A stretch of 64,000 bases of DNA from Haladaptatus caseinilyticus (GTDB lineage Archaea > Halobacteriota > Halobacteria > Halobacteriales > Haladaptataceae). Below the pieces are notes generated by a model. That model was not told where the DNA came from and made no database searches. It saw only the letters and a list, made by a program, of their open reading frames with translations. Position numbers and translations under genes: made by a program. The stretch lies in the NCBI RefSeq assembly GCF_026248685.1, contig NZ_CP111039.1, forward strand, positions 1-64,000. Reading direction: 5' to 3'. Each line of letters opens with the position of its first letter. Position 1 is the first letter of the stretch. Positions 42,251-53,928 of this stretch are shown here, in pieces.

Positions 42251-42781
42251 ATGGTTCCCCCAGGAAATCACGAGCAGAGCGACAGAAACGGGTCAGAAAC
42301 AGCGTCTAGTGACTCTATTTCACAGACAATTGCAGGGATGGTTGATGCTGGTATAGTGCTGGTCGACACAGTGGCCGTGCGTGCTGGTCAAGCAGTCGGA
42401 GTCACAGATGAGACGGTTGCAAAAGCGATTCCGAAGGCATACAGTGTCGCGCTTACGTCAGGCCTCGTTATTGGTCGTGCCGCCGCCCAATCGAGTGGGA
42501 GCGTGAATGTCTGTGATCAATCCAAATTCATCGGACAGGCACTCCCGTTCTTTCTCACCGCTGGCGGGACGTTCCTCGTCGGTGCCTACGCGCTGAGCCA
42601 ACTCATCGGTGGTGGCGGCCAGGCACTCTCGATGTCGAGTGGCAAGCAAGGGACGTTCAAAAGCATGCAGATGGATGGGCACAAGGGCTTTATTAGCGCC
42701 CTTGTCGGTCTCTCACTGCTTGGCATCATGATGGGCTGGATGGCTTTCCCGGTTGATACCAGCTGTCTGCCCGGTGTCTAA
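42251..42781 (+). CDS. Membrane protein, first gene of secretion-like operon
   Basis: The 176-residue product has an Asn/Ser-rich N-terminus, a small amphipathic region and two or three membrane segments (ALPFFLTAGGTFLVGAYALS and FISALVGLSLLGIMMGWMAF). Two cysteines may be conserved (VNVCDQSK, DTSCLPGV). A pilin-like VirB2 role is possible from its position and size, but I see no direct match. It is separated by 10 bases from the next gene, where a strong Shine-Dalgarno sequence follows. Confidence 0.6.
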   Translation: MVPPGNHEQSDRNGSETASSDSISQTIAGMVDAGIVLVDTVAVRAGQAVGVTDETVAKAIPKAYSVALTSGLVIGRAAAQSSGSVNVCDQSKFIGQALPFFLTAGGTFLVGAYALSQLIGGGGQALSMSSGKQGTFKSMQMDGHKGFISALVGLSLLGIMMGWMAFPVDTSCLPGV

Positions 42782-42791
42782 GGAGGAATGC

Positions 42792-44195
42792 ATGCACGCC
42801 AACACCCGACGAGTGTTGGTTGTCAGTCTTGCTGTGCTCCTCCTCGCACCGATGCTGATTACCCCAGTAGTCGCCGTTGACTCGCACTCGTCACACTCGA
42901 TGTTTCAAGCCACCTCGCCCAACGGATCTGCAGCCAATAATTCGACGACAACGACGCCAGCCAACGGCTCGCATGCGCCGGGCAGTGGTTCGTCCGGGAG
43001 TGGTGGCTTCGGTGGGTTCATGCCTGATATCCCGGGGCCAAAAGAGACCGCGAAAATTGCGGTCAATTATCTGGCTGGGACGTGGCTTGCCAACCAGCTC
43101 ACTCAGGCGTTCAAGGACTTCATCAACGCCTTCACCGGCTTCATCGTTGGGACGCCATACCCGACGAACGACGGTTATCTCGGCATCCTTGGCTACCCCG
43201 TGGAGAATCAGAATCCCAATTGGAACGCCGTCTTCTGGCAGCTCTATGTTCCATACGTCGGCTCAACGTCGATGATACTCCTGGTGTTGAACCACTGGTT
43301 TTCTGCGATCAAGGTCACGACACCCGGCATCGGACAGCATCTTGATGGGAGTGATTTGCTTGTCAAGACGACGGCTGGTGGGATGTTCATCGGCCTCTGG
43401 TGGCAGATCGGGACAGCAATCGCCCGGCTGAACAATGCACTTGCGACCACGCTCGCTCCAAGTGGGGCGGAAATGGTCACGACACTGAATGGGCTCGTGA
43501 AAGTGGCCTCCGGTGCGATTCTCACTGTCGTCTTGACACATGGTGCGGGCGTCTCGGAAGTTGCTGCTCTAGCACTCATGTATGGCACGCGGCACGCACT
43601 GCTCATCCTCTACCAGGTGTGCATGCCCCTCCTGGTGATCATGGCACTCACGGCACCGGCCGAGTGGATGCGCGGCTTCTTCGCGCGGTTAGCGTGGCAC
43701 TACATCACGCTGCTCATCCTCGTCTTCCCAGCGGCCTTCCTCCTCCGGCTTGGACTGATCATCGACTTCGATTTCGGATTTGGTCCACTTGGGGACGTGC
43801 TCGCCGGAATGGGTTTCCTCGGTGGTGCAATCCTGTCGGTCGCGATCCTCGGCTGGACGTCGATCGCAACGCGACGCTATGCGGGAAAGATGAGCAAAGC
43901 GGCCGGGAACAGTCGTCCTACGAAGGATGGTATGGAGAAATCCTACGAGCGTGCCAAAGAGCGCAAAGAATCAGCGACCACGTGGATCCAGTCCCGTGAG
44001 CACCAGCTACGTAACATTCGTCAACGCGCAGGTGAGCGCACAGAATCCGCTAAGCAGTGGGTTCAGAGTAAGCGAGACAAATCTCGAGCCGTTCGGACCG
44101 ATGGTGGAAAGGAGAGTATGCGGAAGCGACGTGTGAACAGCCGGGATTGGGAGTACACAGCAGAATCGAACAGAGCGAGCCCAGACGATGACTGA
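42792..44195 (+). CDS. Polytopic membrane protein, VirB6/TrbL-like
   Basis: The 467-residue protein begins with a signal-like helix (VLVVSLAVLLLAPMLITPVV) and a Ser/Thr/Asn-rich segment. About seven membrane helices follow, with a basic cytoplasmic tail (KSYERAKERKESATTWIQSR). Size and topology resemble VirB6/TrbL channel components of type IV secretion systems. AGGAGG at 42781-42786 is a near-ideal ribosome binding site for the ATG at 42792, unusual among leaderless neighbours. This start is preferred to one at 42753. Confidence 0.68.
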   Translation: MHANTRRVLVVSLAVLLLAPMLITPVVAVDSHSSHSMFQATSPNGSAANNSTTTTPANGSHAPGSGSSGSGGFGGFMPDIPGPKETAKIAVNYLAGTWLANQLTQAFKDFINAFTGFIVGTPYPTNDGYLGILGYPVENQNPNWNAVFWQLYVPYVGSTSMILLVLNHWFSAIKVTTPGIGQHLDGSDLLVKTTAGGMFIGLWWQIGTAIARLNNALATTLAPSGAEMVTTLNGLVKVASGAILTVVLTHGAGVSEVAALALMYGTRHALLILYQVCMPLLVIMALTAPAEWMRGFFARLAWHYITLLILVFPAAFLLRLGLIIDFDFGFGPLGDVLAGMGFLGGAILSVAILGWTSIATRRYAGKMSKAAGNSRPTKDGMEKSYERAKERKESATTWIQSREHQLRNIRQRAGERTESAKQWVQSKRDKSRAVRTDGGKESMRKRRVNSRDWEYTAESNRASPDDD

Positions 44196-47575: not shown

Positions 47576-47832
47576 GCCTCCTGTTCCAGGCTGTCGATAT
47601 CGTCGTGGCCGCGTTTCACACACTCGCAAATGTTCCACCTATCCAGCAGTTCTCAACATTCCTCGCCGAGCGGATGTTTGCGGTCTTCTTCACGAATAGT
47701 CTCGTACCAGCGTTCCTGGGTTACTCGGCACCGGAACTCAACGCACTGCTTGGTGACATCGTTGCGTCGTATATGGCGATTATCGGTGTACTGATTGGAG
47801 GCTCGAAATTCATTCCGGGGGCAGGCCGATGA
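47572..47832 (+). CDS. Small membrane protein of the module
   Basis: The 86-residue product has two hydrophobic helices (FFTNSLVPAFLGY region and IVASYMAIIGVLIGG). Four-base ATGA overlaps join it to the VirB4-like gene and the following gene, so it is part of the same coupled operon. The family is unknown. Confidence 0.65.
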   Translation: MSLLFQAVDIVVAAFHTLANVPPIQQFSTFLAERMFAVFFTNSLVPAFLGYSAPELNALLGDIVASYMAIIGVLIGGSKFIPGAGR

Positions 47833-48893
47833 GTCGCTTCAGTCGGTCAGCCGAGTACCGTGCTGCACAACTCGGTGCAACGTCCAACGACCAAGCTAGT
47901 GATGAACTCATTCGCGTTCGGCCATTCAAAGACGATGGCGGGATTGACACCGCAATCGAGTGGTTCGAATCCGTCCATCCCTCTCACTCGGACCTGAGTG
48001 GCAAACGAAGCGTGCCCCGTGCAGCAGAGATCGTCTATGACGGTGAACAGATCAGCTTCCGGTACCTCCCGTGTAGCGACGATTTCCACTGGTTCCTGAC
48101 TCGACTCCGGCACAAGTATCCTGATTCGGACGTTCGGCGGGAAGACGCCGACCTCATACACATCGATGAGGGGGATTACGTGGCAGGCGGTGAGTGGACG
48201 CTCCGCAAACATCGATGGTGGCCGATTCGTCGTCGTGACCTCGAAGGCTTCCGCGAAGACGACCCATACGAAACCGTCCTCGGCGATATCGTAGATGATG
48301 CGGTGAAAGCCGGTGGGGCAACTGGTCGAGAGCCGGTACGGAGCGTCATCCAAGTCATGTTTCGCCCAACAACGCGGAACTGGCAGACTGGACGGCTTCT
48401 CACGACGAATATCACTGAACTCTACTATCATTTGAACGGTGTCTACACGATTCACGACCTCGCCGAGACCAAGCGCGAGAAAGAGACAGCCGATGCAACG
48501 GAGATCGGGAACGTCCTCGATCGACGCGCGAAAGAGAAAGCATTTGATGTGATGATTCGCCACCTCTCGGTTGGTGACGACAAGGAAGCTGTCAAGCACC
48601 ATGCTGAGGCGGTCGGTGCCTCCTTCGCGAGCTATTACAACTCAAAGACCGAGCAAGCGTTTATTGTCGAGCCGAGTAGTTCGCCGAACGCATTGGCGGA
48701 GACGATGGCCCGCCGGGAGTGGTTGGGTGAGAAGATGTTGCTCACCTCACTCGAGATCGCCCCGATTGTGCATCTACCACCGGCAGATATCTCGATCGCG
48801 CAACTCGACCGCCGCCAGACCAAACGCGGCGAAGAGGTGCCGGTTGGGTCTCACGAGCACAGCGGATACATCACGGGGGAGAAAGATGCTTAA
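47829..48893 (+). CDS. Soluble protein of the secretion module
   Basis: I do not recognise this 354-residue cytoplasmic protein. It is acidic with Trp/Arg-rich segments (WTLRKHRWWPIRRRDLEGF) and a C-terminal region like a mating-partner or coupling-associated protein (LPPADISIAQLDRR). It overlaps its neighbours by 4 and 8 bases and is therefore translated with the ATPases. A relaxosome or coupling-accessory role is possible. Confidence 0.6.
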   Translation: MSRFSRSAEYRAAQLGATSNDQASDELIRVRPFKDDGGIDTAIEWFESVHPSHSDLSGKRSVPRAAEIVYDGEQISFRYLPCSDDFHWFLTRLRHKYPDSDVRREDADLIHIDEGDYVAGGEWTLRKHRWWPIRRRDLEGFREDDPYETVLGDIVDDAVKAGGATGREPVRSVIQVMFRPTTRNWQTGRLLTTNITELYYHLNGVYTIHDLAETKREKETADATEIGNVLDRRAKEKAFDVMIRHLSVGDDKEAVKHHAEAVGASFASYYNSKTEQAFIVEPSSSPNALAETMARREWLGEKMLLTSLEIAPIVHLPPADISIAQLDRRQTKRGEEVPVGSHEHSGYITGEKDA

Positions 48894-51633
48894 TCGACTC
48901 TTCGGGAGTGGTGAAGACGATTCGGCGGATGAATCACCGGAGATTGAAGCCGAGGAGGATGCTGCCGTTCCAACAACGATCACGAACGAACCGTATGGGT
49001 TCACCCAAACGGGTGCAGAGTACGCGGCGGATGGCATGACTGAAACGATCACTGAAACCGAAGAGCAGGGACCGGTGGCAGGCCCAGAGATCCGCGAACT
49101 GCTCGAACGTGCTCGTGATCATCCAGACATGCCACTATGGTTGGGCTACAACGACAGCGCCCAGCAGGGCTTCGATCCGGCCCCTGTCGAGTTCAACCAG
49201 CTTTTCCAGCATCTCTGGGTTGTCGGAACCACAGGTGCCGGGAAAACCACCGAGATGCTAAATTGGATGGTGCAGCTCGCCTGGGCAGGCTATGGGTTCA
49301 TCTACTTCGACCCCAAGGCCGAGGATAGCAAAGAACTCCTCCAGAAAATTCCCGAGTATCGGCATGACGACGTGATCTGGATTGAGCCAGGTGACGACGA
49401 CCACGATCGGAGCATCGGGATCAACTTCCTCGAAGTCCCGGACTGTGAGAGCGAGATGGAGCTTGAACAGCACGTCACCGATCGTATTCAGGTGCTCAAA
49501 GCTGTTCTGTCGGGTGACGACTACTGGGGCCCACGGATGAACGCCATCGTGGAGTCGATGGCACGAGCGATGATGCAGGCGAATCACGAGATCGAGGACC
49601 CAGACGAGCAGTACTGTGTGCTCGATATGTACTTCGTCCTCCTAAACGCCCAACGGCGAGAAGATTTCGCCGAGGAAATCGATGATCCGTGGGTCGGTGA
49701 GTTCGTCTCCGAAATCGCCGAGATGGATGATGACGCTGTGCGACCCGTGATTACGCGGCTGAAGCCGTGGGTCGAGAGTCCTGTCACTCGTCGCATTGCG
49801 GGCTGTCGGGAGAGTACGATCGACTTTCGGGATATCCTCGATGACGAGAAGATTGTAATCGTTCGCACAGCGGTTTCCGACGATGATATCAAGCAACTCG
49901 TGACACTCGGCACGCTTCGTCCACTGTGGAATGCGATTCAAAACCGTTCGATCGAAGGCGCGGAGAAAACGCCGTTCTTTGCGATTCTCGACGAGGCAGA
50001 CCGCGTCCTTCACAAGAATCTCGACGTCGACGACATGCTAGCACGTGCTCGCTCGATGCGCCTCTCGGTGACGCTAGCCTGCCAGTATCCGACGCAACTC
50101 AAAGAGTCGGGTGTCCTCAAGCCAGTCAAGAACAACTGCAACACAGGCGTGTTCTTCCGCGTACTGGACGACGAGGACGCCCGCCCACTCACCCGGCGGT
50201 TGAGTGACTGTGATATCGAGGATTTCACCGAACTCGAAAACCATCGGATCTGGTCCCGAATTCCGCTAGACGGCGGTACCCGGTTCTCTGGTGCGCTCAA
50301 GCTCAAGACATTTGCGCCGTATCCAAACATTCGCGACGAAGACGAAGCGGAGGCAATTATCACTGAAAGTCTGGAGCGGTTTGCTGCCCCGCCACTCACG
50401 GACGACGAGATGATGCGCCAGCTCAAGTTTGGTGGGATGAACGAAGCCGTCACACCAGAGAAGGCGAGCGCCAAGACACTCGATACGGCTAACGACGAAC
50501 GATCGCGTGACGCGGCACTGAAAGCCATCTACGACGAGAGCATCCGACAGGGACAACCGGGTGAGTTCATCCCGATTGAGGCGTGTCTCGATCGACTCAG
50601 TGGGTATCTCCCCGCGAGGGGCGGGGTTGAGACCGCCGAACGTGCATGGCGGCATGTGCTCAAGGATATTCCTGAAGCCTACCTTGACTATCGCGAGGAG
50701 AACGAGCAGGGGCAAGTCAAAGTACGCTCTCGGAGTTTCATGAACATCGGCGATCGCGAGAATGACGGCGGCGCAGAACACTGGGCACCAATGGCTGATG
50801 CCTACGTCCCACTGACGCAACTCGGGTTTGTCGTTGATATCCTCGCACAGGACGGCGGCGACATGCCAGACGCACTCGCCAGCGTGGAGGACGCATTAGA
50901 CATCCCAGACGACGCGGACAATGAGGAAATTGCTGACGCCGTCGCACACTACCGAGAGCATCATCCCGTGATGAATCGGTTGGCTGGTGCTCGCGAGGTC
51001 TACATCGAAAGCGAACACACGACCGGGAATAGCCAACCCTCACAGACTGTTCGGAACGTCATGCAGGCGGTCAACGAAGGGAAACGATGTCTGCTCGTCT
51101 CGCGGGAACAGACAGCTAGACGAGTCCATACGACGCTCCTTAAGGAACCGAAGGGCTGTCACAAGAACCATTCCGTCGATGGCGAACAACGCTTCTACAC
51201 GCTCACGGGTGACGTAGCGATCGACGGCGAGGTCATAACTCGTCCTGGGAGCAGCGACAACGTCTGGGTGTATGAGGAGGGCAGTGGGGAGTATGTCCTC
51301 CGCGACGACAACGGAACAGAGCACGCTCGTTTCGAAAACCCTGAGGCGATCTTCGAGGACGCCACTGCCTACCCGATGGGCGGCGACCGGTCGGTAAAAG
51401 CGCCGATCGTCCCCGACTATGACACGGATATGCTGGATATCATCGTCGTCAAAGAAGACGCGAAGACGCCAGCAGACTTGTTCCTCTACCGGCCAGATGG
51501 CAACCATGTCCCACTGGATATGCTTGCTACCGACGACGGGGAAGCTACCCAGACGGTCGCTGACGACGATCACAACCACGAGGAAACCGAGTCAGAAGAT
51601 GACGGCGGAGATATCGTTGACGCCCTCCGCTAA
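48886..51633 (+). CDS. VirD4/HerA-like coupling ATPase
   Basis: The 915-residue protein contains an FtsK/HerA/TraD-type motor. Walker A is GTTGAGKTT at residues 114-122, with FIYFDPKAED following. The Walker B region is FFAILDEADRV and the sensor region LACQYPTQLKES. Such coupling proteins deliver DNA-protein substrates to the VirB4 machine. The C-terminal 300 residues contain extra domains (DLFLYRPDGNHVPLDML). The ATG at 48886 sits inside the end of the previous gene. Confidence 0.85.
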   Translation: MLNRLFGSGEDDSADESPEIEAEEDAAVPTTITNEPYGFTQTGAEYAADGMTETITETEEQGPVAGPEIRELLERARDHPDMPLWLGYNDSAQQGFDPAPVEFNQLFQHLWVVGTTGAGKTTEMLNWMVQLAWAGYGFIYFDPKAEDSKELLQKIPEYRHDDVIWIEPGDDDHDRSIGINFLEVPDCESEMELEQHVTDRIQVLKAVLSGDDYWGPRMNAIVESMARAMMQANHEIEDPDEQYCVLDMYFVLLNAQRREDFAEEIDDPWVGEFVSEIAEMDDDAVRPVITRLKPWVESPVTRRIAGCRESTIDFRDILDDEKIVIVRTAVSDDDIKQLVTLGTLRPLWNAIQNRSIEGAEKTPFFAILDEADRVLHKNLDVDDMLARARSMRLSVTLACQYPTQLKESGVLKPVKNNCNTGVFFRVLDDEDARPLTRRLSDCDIEDFTELENHRIWSRIPLDGGTRFSGALKLKTFAPYPNIRDEDEAEAIITESLERFAAPPLTDDEMMRQLKFGGMNEAVTPEKASAKTLDTANDERSRDAALKAIYDESIRQGQPGEFIPIEACLDRLSGYLPARGGVETAERAWRHVLKDIPEAYLDYREENEQGQVKVRSRSFMNIGDRENDGGAEHWAPMADAYVPLTQLGFVVDILAQDGGDMPDALASVEDALDIPDDADNEEIADAVAHYREHHPVMNRLAGAREVYIESEHTTGNSQPSQTVRNVMQAVNEGKRCLLVSREQTARRVHTTLLKEPKGCHKNHSVDGEQRFYTLTGDVAIDGEVITRPGSSDNVWVYEEGSGEYVLRDDNGTEHARFENPEAIFEDATAYPMGGDRSVKAPIVPDYDTDMLDIIVVKEDAKTPADLFLYRPDGNHVPLDMLATDDGEATQTVADDDHNHEETESEDDGGDIVDALR

Positions 51634-52148
51634 TCGACGTCGAGCAGGTTCCGCATCTCTGCGACGTTCTCGTCACTCACTGCATCGCTTTTCGACGCCA
51701 GCAAGACGAGCGCTTTCTTGATTTTCTCCTGGTCGTCCAGCTGATTCTCGACTGTTTCAAGCCGATTCTCCATAGCTGAAACGCGCGCTGCTGTCTCTGC
51801 AGTTGGCGGTGGACTGAGTGCCGTGTCAGTCGTCTCGATGAACTCTTCGGCGAACTCGGTGAGTCGCCAGATCCGCGCTGGACGTCCACCGCCAGCGGGA
51901 TACTCGCGCTCACCAGTGTCCTTGATCAGTCCCCACTCTTCCATCGTCACCAAGTGGTGATTAGCACTCCCAGTCGGCACGTCGGCACGCTCGCGAAGAA
52001 TGGATGTGTTCAACTCGCTTTCATCTGCATTGGCGAACGCAGCAAGGATGCTCCGACGGTGCTGGCTCCCCTGGTTGAGCTTCCGCTCGATGGTGTCCAT
52101 CTGTGCGCCCCAGTCCTCATCGTCATAGTTAGATGTATCAGCTGGCAT
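51630..52148 (-). CDS. Winged-helix regulator with coiled coil
   Basis: The 172-residue protein has an ArsR-like winged helix (LNTSILRERADVPTGSANHH, VTMEEWGLIKDTG, wing GGGRPARIWRLTEF). A coiled coil follows (VSAMENRLETVENQLDDQEK). It converges with the coupling ATPase gene, overlapping it by four bases, and may regulate the module or the repeat region downstream. Confidence 0.72.
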   Translation of the reverse strand: MPADTSNYDDEDWGAQMDTIERKLNQGSQHRRSILAAFANADESELNTSILRERADVPTGSANHHLVTMEEWGLIKDTGEREYPAGGGRPARIWRLTEFAEEFIETTDTALSPPPTAETAARVSAMENRLETVENQLDDQEKIKKALVLLASKSDAVSDENVAEMRNLLDVD

Positions 52149-52405: not shown

Positions 52406-53093
52406 GGCACCCCCAATCTGTCACGAAACAGATGATGAACAGTACACGCGAAAAGGGGCACCCCAACAGGCAGTCAACAGAGGTATTTGAAGCAATGCGA
52501 CAGAGCAGCCAGCCGGGGGGCAACAGCACCCGGACAGTCTACCAGAGCGAAGCGTCGACGACAACGAGGACACGAAGAAGAGGACAGTCCACTCTGCAGA
52601 ACAACCCGGGAAGAACCACAAGAGAGGGAGGACAGTCAGGCCCTGCCGGACTCAGAGAGAAACAACGGAGTGACGGAAGGGGACAGTCCAACAGTGCGAC
52701 GAGCAGAACCACGAGAAGGAGCGTACTGGCAGCAGGGGCAGCTAAACAGCACTGGCGGCAAGCCGCCATGAGGGGCACCGGGCAGTGTACCGCACAGCGG
52801 AGAGGCTGCAACAGTACAGCGACACCGACTGCAGCAGCAGACCTGGAATGATGGCCAGCACAGGCGAGTGGGGGCCGTGATATCCTTGAGCCAGGGATAG
52901 ACGAAAAGAGTGGACAGTCTGCCCTGCCAGGACATCATGAGAAACCCGCGAAGCGACTATGTGGGGTGCCAGTATCTGCACTGGAGTGGGGTGCCAATGA
53001 GCGACACGCAGTCAACCAGTCTTGGTACACTAACTGGGGTGCCAGCAGCACGTACTCACGGAATGCCCGTGTGACGGCAAAGGTGGGGTGCCA
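52406..53093. repeat. Array of GGACAGTCC and TGGGGTGCCA motifs, left half
   Basis: GGACAGTC(C) occurs at 52532, 52582, 52630, 52681 and 52912. Spacings of the first four are 50, 48 and 51 bases. TGGGGTGCCA occurs at 52962, 52987, 53035 and 53084 (25, 48 and 49 apart). Its reverse, GGCACCCC, occurs at 52406 and 52457. The distances are not multiples of three, so the pattern is not explained by coding. 52149-53132 otherwise has no supported gene. Confidence 0.85.
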
Positions 53094-53132
53094 CATGGGC
53101 GTTAGAAAAGTATAGCGACGAGAAAACGAGAG

Positions 53133-53474
53133 TTAGCGTTGATAGTAGAATTCAACGACTTTGAAGACAGCCCAGACAGTGATGAAGATGGAGCTAATGA
53201 AGACCACATTTATCCAGAGCAGCGGCAGTGGCTGGGTGATCCCAAAGAGGTCAAGCCCAAAGCTGATGAGCTTACCGAGGGCTGCATAGATGAGTGGCCC
53301 AATGAAGATCAGTGCGAGGAGCGACGCACCAATGACTTCGAGAACGTTCCGAGTGTAGGGCTTTTTGAGTGACTGAACAACTGAGCTCATAGTCAATATT
53401 ACAACGGCAGTGATAATATAGATTTCTAAAATATTAGCTGTGTACCTAAGTACAGCTGTAGAGAGTTTCACCAC
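53133..53474 (-). CDS. Membrane protein between the repeat arrays
   Basis: The 113-residue product has three membrane helices (ILEIYIITAVVILTMSSVV, VIGASLLALIFIGPLIYAA, LPLLWINVVFISSIFITVWA). No family is recognised. It lies between the two motif arrays. Confidence 0.6.
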   Translation of the reverse strand: MVKLSTAVLRYTANILEIYIITAVVILTMSSVVQSLKKPYTRNVLEVIGASLLALIFIGPLIYAALGKLISFGLDLFGITQPLPLLWINVVFISSIFITVWAVFKVVEFYYQR

Positions 53475-53520
53475 TAGTTATCTACAGCGAGTCAACGATA
53501 GAACACGGATCACAGCACTA

Positions 53521-53928
53521 TTGGGTTCCACATGGGCGCCATACTGAGATGCCACCAGGAGAGCAACCGTCTTCCACAAAACGCACGAGGAGGCGGCAGT
53601 GAATAGCGCTGCCAGACTGTCCACAGAAAGTCAGGGGGCTGCCGTGAGACGGCATAGGGCAGCACGTTGGACTGTCCACGACTAAGCAGCACAGTAGAGA
53701 TGAGCTGGCTAGAGTCCGGTGGACTGTCCTCTACGTACCAGCAGGAGAGTGGTAGGTTTAGTAACGGTGGGACTGTCGAGTGAGCGCTGTTTACAGCGGA
53801 ACTCTGGTGTGTTACCAGGAAGACTGTCAGGAGCTGGAGCTGGCTGTCTGGCCGGTGGAAAAGCAGATGAAAACCGCTGTGTTGCAGCTGGGTGGGCACC
53901 TCGTCTGGTTTCTGCCGGCTGACTGTCC
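53521..53928. repeat. Array of GGACTGTCC motifs, right half (inverted)
   Basis: GACTGTC(C) occurs at 53615, 53670, 53722, 53771, 53822 and 53921, with spacings of 55, 52, 49, 51 and 99 bases. Every copy has a T at the centre, the reverse of the left array. TTGGGTTCCACATGGGCG at 53521-53538 matches 16 of 18 bases of the left motif copy at 53084-53101. Two long frames here on opposite strands are unlikely genes. Confidence 0.85.

Follow-up and report, generated by a model that had tools for sequence, protein, structure and literature searches.

What might be the role of short motifs, repeated at regular intervals and in opposed orientations, next to a putative secretion operon of a haloarchaeon? 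The question arises from the first 64,000 nucleotides of contig NZ_CP111039.1 of Haladaptatus caseinilyticus, a stretch which, at its full length, we shall call the window. A sequence-only reading of positions 52406 to 53928 had noticed five copies of a motif centred on A and six copies of its counterpart centred on T, about 50 bases apart (mostly 48-55), on either side of a small membrane gene, and it had thought of a nucleoprotein or transfer (oriT-like) site, or else of a centromere. The features that we recognize in this region are the following (locus numbers, here and below, are our own):

52406..53928, no strand: the phased array in its entirety, with blocks in the order Y' X Y X', where Y is GGGGTGCC and X is GGACAGTCC
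52406..52464, minus strand: block Y', GGCACCCC at 52406 and 52457, 51 bp apart
52530..52962, plus strand: T-depleted left arm, with about 9% T and 31% A once the motifs are removed
52532..52920, plus strand: block X, GACAGTC cores at 52533, 52583, 52631, 52682 and 52913
52963..53092, plus strand: block Y, TGGGGTGCCA at 52962, 52987, 53035 and 53084, in steps of 25, 48 and 49 bp
53086-53101 and 53523-53538: 16-bp imperfect direct repeat flanking the insert, GGGTGCCACATGGGCG and GGGTTCCACATGGGCG
53102..53522, no strand: lineage-specific insert, about 420 bp long, separating block Y from block X'
53133-53390, minus strand: small membrane gene in the insert
53614..53928, minus strand: block X', GACTGTC cores at 53615, 53670, 53722, 53771, 53822 and 53921

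All eleven copies are indeed there, at the places where they had been seen, but the motif had been drawn too long: the complete GGACNGTCC is found in only four of the eleven GAC(A/T)GTC sites (1.23 perfect copies being expected), and what stays constant in X and X' is the 7-mer GACNGTC. The spacing was well judged, as we measure 50, 48 and 51 bp in block X, followed by a gap of 231, and 55, 52, 49 and 51 bp in block X', followed by a gap of 99. The opposite orientation is correct as well, while making only one part of a richer pattern, because a second motif with six copies follows the same ruler (GGCACCCC at 52406 and 52457, GGGGTGCC at 52963, 52988, 53036 and 53085). The sites thus succeed one another as Y'Y' - XXXX - 231 bp - X - YYYY - insert - X'X'X'X'X'X', that is, some 17 short sites over 1.5 kb, in opposed blocks on a 25-base ruler. 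When the region was shuffled with a Markov model (500 shuffles), each motif appeared 0.1-0.2 times on average and at most two or three times, far below the five A-centred and six T-centred copies, the two of GGCACCCC and the four of GGGGTGCC that are observed. A coding origin was considered and rejected, as had been anticipated, since the spacings vary by non-multiples of three; the region has no family match and holds no conserved protein. A tRNA search returned none.

The membrane gene is real, yet its position between the two arrays is incidental: it is absent from most homologous arrays, and the site of the insert is empty in five copies (L009, L010, L017, L023 and L048). The insert or its gene is met again at L018, L049, L013 and L019, at two different array positions, a relative of the gene lying at the other place in L013 and L019. 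The 85-aa membrane protein has so far been seen only inside these arrays, in two plasmids, both from Haladaptatus, and the insert is possibly a tiny mobile element or an exclusion gene linked to the array.

A combination of coupling-protein and motif searches gathered about 45 related loci, of which 30 elements, found in Haladaptatus and in two other genomes of haloarchaea, were retained for statistics of lattice and orientation. Taken over all of their 443 adjacent spacings, the best-fitting period is 24.9 bp (R = 0.70, against a null maximum of 0.20 in 2000 trials); GACAGTC lies to the left of the Y block in 145 of 147 cores (145:2) and GACTGTC to its right in 179 of 180 (179:1), figures that are not independent, as the elements share descent, with coupling proteins as distant as 33-38% identity nevertheless among them. 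Individual sites are retained well beyond their surroundings: when the window copy, its insert left out, is compared with five closer copies (77-82% DNA identity), 72 of 85 sites are intact (85%), against 25% of background 7-mers. Complete elements are 1.1-1.5 kb long and share the block order Y' X Y X' (Y'), the leading Y' block having one to four copies in homologues; in nearly every copy the left arm, from the first X to Y, is poor in T on the array strand (mostly 7-14%, motifs removed). We may state that the array is real, conserved and, in the literature searched, undescribed.

In a sample of 392 genomes of the class, triple GACAGTC arrays were found only in the genus of the window and in g64, besides three chance matches in repetitive sequence. 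Within these genomes several arrays with the same motif may share a genome, even a replicon, and copies occur on main chromosomes too, many copies, some chromosomal ones included, being partial; the genome of the window itself, whose array is on the 80-kb contig C4, carries a second array, on contig C7. At L060 and L061, 552 kb apart on one main-chromosome contig (G394:C1), seemingly identical arrays have matching surroundings, which is seemingly a large duplication or an assembly artefact. At L126 (NZ_CP085302.1, near 49.8 kb and 73.0 kb), small SWIM zinc-finger genes stand beside half arrays that consist of the X' block only.

In the window, the neighbourhood of the array reads:

42753..44195, plus strand: conserved gene of the type IV secretion system (T4SS) operon, 480 aa, without family match, syntenic in L009-L011 and L019-L021
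44663..47575, plus strand: VirB4-like conjugation ATPase (NCBIfam VirB4_plasma, 2.4e-41; conju_CD1110, 8.4e-30)
47829..48893, plus strand: conserved gene of the T4SS operon, 354 aa, without family match
48886..51633, plus strand: VirD4/TrwB-like coupling protein, T4CP (Pfam TrwB_AAD_bind, 1.6e-6; TraG-D_C, 3e-5), convergent with the winged-helix gene
51630..52148, minus strand: gene of a winged-helix and coiled-coil protein, 172 aa (AlphaFold pLDDT 73), divergent from the array

The array thus adjoins, as had been said of it, the secretion operon, with VirB4 and VirD4 upstream. Most T4SS proteins of the window share 80-98% identity with their counterparts on the nearest named Haladaptatus plasmids. 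Among nine Haladaptatus/g64 genomes, an array of paired GACAGTC sites lies within 10 kb of the T4CP in 22 of 26 T4CP loci; of the other four, two belong to what we term type 3 and have their own array, with a different motif, one has a disrupted T4CP, and in the last the T4CP stops 1.6 kb short of a contig edge. The unit made of winged-helix gene and array closes the operon at its 3' end in type 1 and stands at its 5' end in type 2 (L127-L129), so that it appears linked to the T4SS rather than to a single gene. Arrays also occur at a distance from any T4CP, complete ones at L066 and L071, and genome G123 has an array and no T4CP match; where the T4SS is missing, truncated coupling-protein genes often persist, which makes these copies look like decayed modules.

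The winged-helix gene is another companion of the arrays. Homologues, down to about 20-30% identity, occupy the Y' end of those complete arrays whose flanks are intact, and point away from them. The model of the 172-aa protein shows a winged helix followed by a coiled coil of 37 residues, with MarR family structures as its best Foldseek matches, and we propose it as the candidate protein that would bind the array. At the X' end of many Haladaptatus arrays we noticed a protein that resembles a lipoprotein and contains an SNase domain (PF00565, 8.5e-6; L131:3037-3798, and also L010, L011, L013, L015, L017, L020, L021, L022, L048, L060, L064 and L067), its gene often 90-800 bp from the last site; none was found at the window copy. 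A secreted nuclease adjoining a transfer locus may matter for mating.

The sequence-only reading had also suggested aligning what lies downstream of homologous VirB4/VirD4 modules. Relatives of the coupling protein were found in 106 of 382 halobacterial genomes sampled, and the flanks of about 60 were read. A plain lattice scan is noisy outside Haladaptatus; a stricter, motif-blind test, which demands a 7-mer with at least two forward and then at least two reverse copies, each at multiples of 25 bp, gave a clear answer. It was positive behind 23 coupling-protein genes, against one of about 75 coding controls, with the proviso that among the 23 L159 is not above its null and that L106/L167 and L120/L140 each cover the same place twice. 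Nearly all of the 23 are convergent with an abutting antisense winged-helix gene, while the test detected no lattice behind some ten T4CPs that also abut an antisense gene. The lattice and the opposed blocks hence recur beside coupling proteins with motifs that differ:

L130/L132, third system of a Haladaptatus genome (type 3): GGGATTC with GGGGTTC, spacings 25, 26, 50 and 52
L157, L158 and L160: GGGAGTC with GGGGTCC
L140: GGGTGTC
L167: GACAGTC with GGGTGCC

In the two-motif arrays of these other systems the order is X Y X' Y', or has an extra Y' leading, and the T-poor left arm is seen again in the type 3 arrays, under other motifs. The classes of winged-helix protein parallel those of the motifs, a VPxGSMxHHL-like recognition helix going with GACAGTC and YRL/YLEP with GGGNNTC; that one tracks the other is only suggestive, as it is confounded by descent. 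The element is not needed by all haloarchaeal systems, since a VirD4 class with a primase-like neighbour (L111-L117) has neither the winged-helix gene nor a detectable array, and perhaps has a different way of starting transfer. Downstream of the T4CP in L111, L112, L114, L116 and L117 there is a conserved protein, about 420 aa long and with LREREQWVCWKEE in its sequence, which may be primase-polymerase-like.

How are we to understand such a construct? Lattice, orientation, conservation and an adjacent predicted DNA-binding protein give strong support to a nucleoprotein array, the first part of what had been proposed. As for its purpose, regulation comes to mind, with a giant operator through which the winged-helix protein would control its own gene and, elsewhere, the T4SS operon or the SNase gene, by way of some 17-20 sites over 1.3 kb. 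The array begins on the 5' side of the winged-helix gene, the fold of whose product is nearest to MarR-type regulators; in type 2 systems it lies upstream of both this gene and the operon, and in a number of Haladaptatus copies it sits between divergent winged-helix and SNase-like lipoprotein genes, a place that suits a regulatory region too. Type 1 operons, that of the window included, nevertheless stop at the winged-helix gene, and the array cannot drive them, while two motifs in blocks of fixed and opposed orientation, spread over 1.3 kb, go far beyond the needs of an operator, and at L071/L131 a complete array persists with the winged-helix gene and the T4SS absent nearby. We consider an operator unlikely, and a centromere, the other half of the earlier proposal, more doubtful still. 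It would see the winged-helix protein as an adaptor that coats the array so that a ParA motor may segregate the plasmid, with a precedent in AspA of the archaeal plasmid pNOB8, a dimeric winged-helix protein whose binding site lies upstream of the gene that encodes it, and which spreads along the DNA (PMC5120986). The window does have a ParA gene (96-881), but 51 kb away from the array; in the Haladaptatus loci read, the winged-helix gene is followed by T4SS genes and not by parB-parA; chromosomal copies exist; and arrays with the same motif share a genome, even a replicon, which would make replicons incompatible. A rule of one array per replicon, which would have favoured a centromere, was rejected on account of the several copies per replicon and of those on main chromosomes. 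Taken together, the type 1 layout, the presence of several arrays on one replicon and the lack of parBA make both operator and centromere less probable. At a single locus (L122:3571-5547, T4CP on the plus strand) a ParA-like gene and a small hydrophilic gene come after the winged-helix gene that lies behind the T4CP; we saw no other such neighbour, and the locus is a lead for the centromere.

Two further explanations have less in their favour. Iteron-like repeats, a strong strand asymmetry and a plasmid location might evoke the replication origin (oriV) of a plasmid or an integrated element, which we find quite improbable, for no replication gene (Rep, Orc1/Cdc6) was recognized adjoining the array among the neighbours read, several copies share a replicon, and the sites, of two kinds and opposed, are associated with VirD4 and not with Rep. 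A long structured non-coding RNA whose left and right copies would pair is hardly credible: the opposed sites would be complementary if transcribed, but there is no Rfam match, neither strand gives consistently low folding z-scores, X, Y, X' and Y' interleave so that pairing would not nest, and a 25-bp ruler is meaningless for pairing.

We lean, then, on the evidence of sequence, towards a cis-acting locus for DNA transfer, akin to oriT or clt, which the winged-helix protein would coat and the coupling protein would read. What leads to this view is the linkage to VirB4/VirD4 across several families, which favours transfer over a centromere, together with system-specific motifs, position and a fixed polarity that is otherwise unexplained. 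Several observations weigh against it: some complete arrays are remote from any T4CP, many copies are partial, main-chromosome ones among them, the L111-L117 class does without the element, about ten T4CPs next to an antisense gene show no lattice, and a place between divergent genes would suit regulation as well. The winged-helix protein, perhaps with the coupling protein, would bind the sites at 25-bp steps and assemble with them into an ordered complex that has a polarity; the inverted blocks X>Y><X<Y would let like sites of both halves come together, the T-poor arm would be the stretch that is opened or processed, and the VirD4-like motor would dock at the array and export the plasmid. A search for relaxases that covered the PF03432 and PF08751 families only gave, in nine genomes, no match above the cut-off for the former (MOBP) and none for the latter (TrwC), and no nic site can be recognized in the array; the 354-aa T4SS protein was considered as a possible relaxase, with an AlphaFold model (pLDDT 40.6) too poor to use. 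Either an enzyme of another kind would nick the DNA, or the motor would load directly, as in the TraB/clt system of Streptomyces. It is tempting to go further, and tentatively to see here the founding member of a new, relaxase-independent class of archaeal transfer origin, where X and Y sites particular to each system, set in 25-bp steps and covered by the winged-helix protein, would load a VirD4-like motor directionally and fix both the exit point and the direction of plasmid DNA.

Archaeal conjugative plasmids have been reported without recognizable relaxases (PMC9905601, PMC3158045), and in the literature searched we found no described haloarchaeal oriT; in the array we see a good candidate for the site, long missing, at which DNA transfer begins in archaea. 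A conserved cis-element and a candidate binding protein beside haloarchaeal VirB4/VirD4 operons make the question of where transfer starts directly testable, and the array could yield a mobilisation tool for halophiles. Its lattice, with two motifs in opposed blocks at 25 bp, is in any case an unusual architecture for protein and DNA.

It remains to place this construct among known systems. With AspA-ParBA of pNOB8 it shares an archaeal plasmid, a winged-helix protein and, as far as position and fold tell, a site upstream of the gene of a DNA-binding protein; AspA, however, has one 23-bp palindrome, and parB-parA genes that overlap (PMC5120986), whereas the array is multi-site and flanked by T4SS genes, with neither parBA nor segA in the cluster. 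A MOB-type oriT, with its TraM or PcfF sites, likewise offers several putative sites for accessory proteins beside transfer genes, with the coupling protein next door; the array differs in being far longer and regularly phased, in lacking a cognate MOBP/TrwC relaxase match in the nine genomes, and in its neighbour, a winged-helix protein where PcfF is a ribbon-helix-helix protein (PMC6514445). In the clt of Streptomyces, repeats of 7-9 bp next to the motor gene are bound by the translocase and serve as transfer locus with no need of a relaxase (PMC3583192). That system relies on a single FtsK-like Tra motor without T4SS and on some 50-175 bp, whereas the archaeal arrays extend over 1.1-1.5 kb, on a 25-bp lattice and with two motifs in opposed blocks, and are accompanied by a separate winged-helix gene and a VirB4/VirD4 system. 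Yet both are non-coding, both adjoin the gene of a motor, both are made of short repeated motifs that vary between plasmids or systems, and clt requires no MOB relaxase, just as the haloarchaeal genomes searched gave no MOBP/TrwC match.
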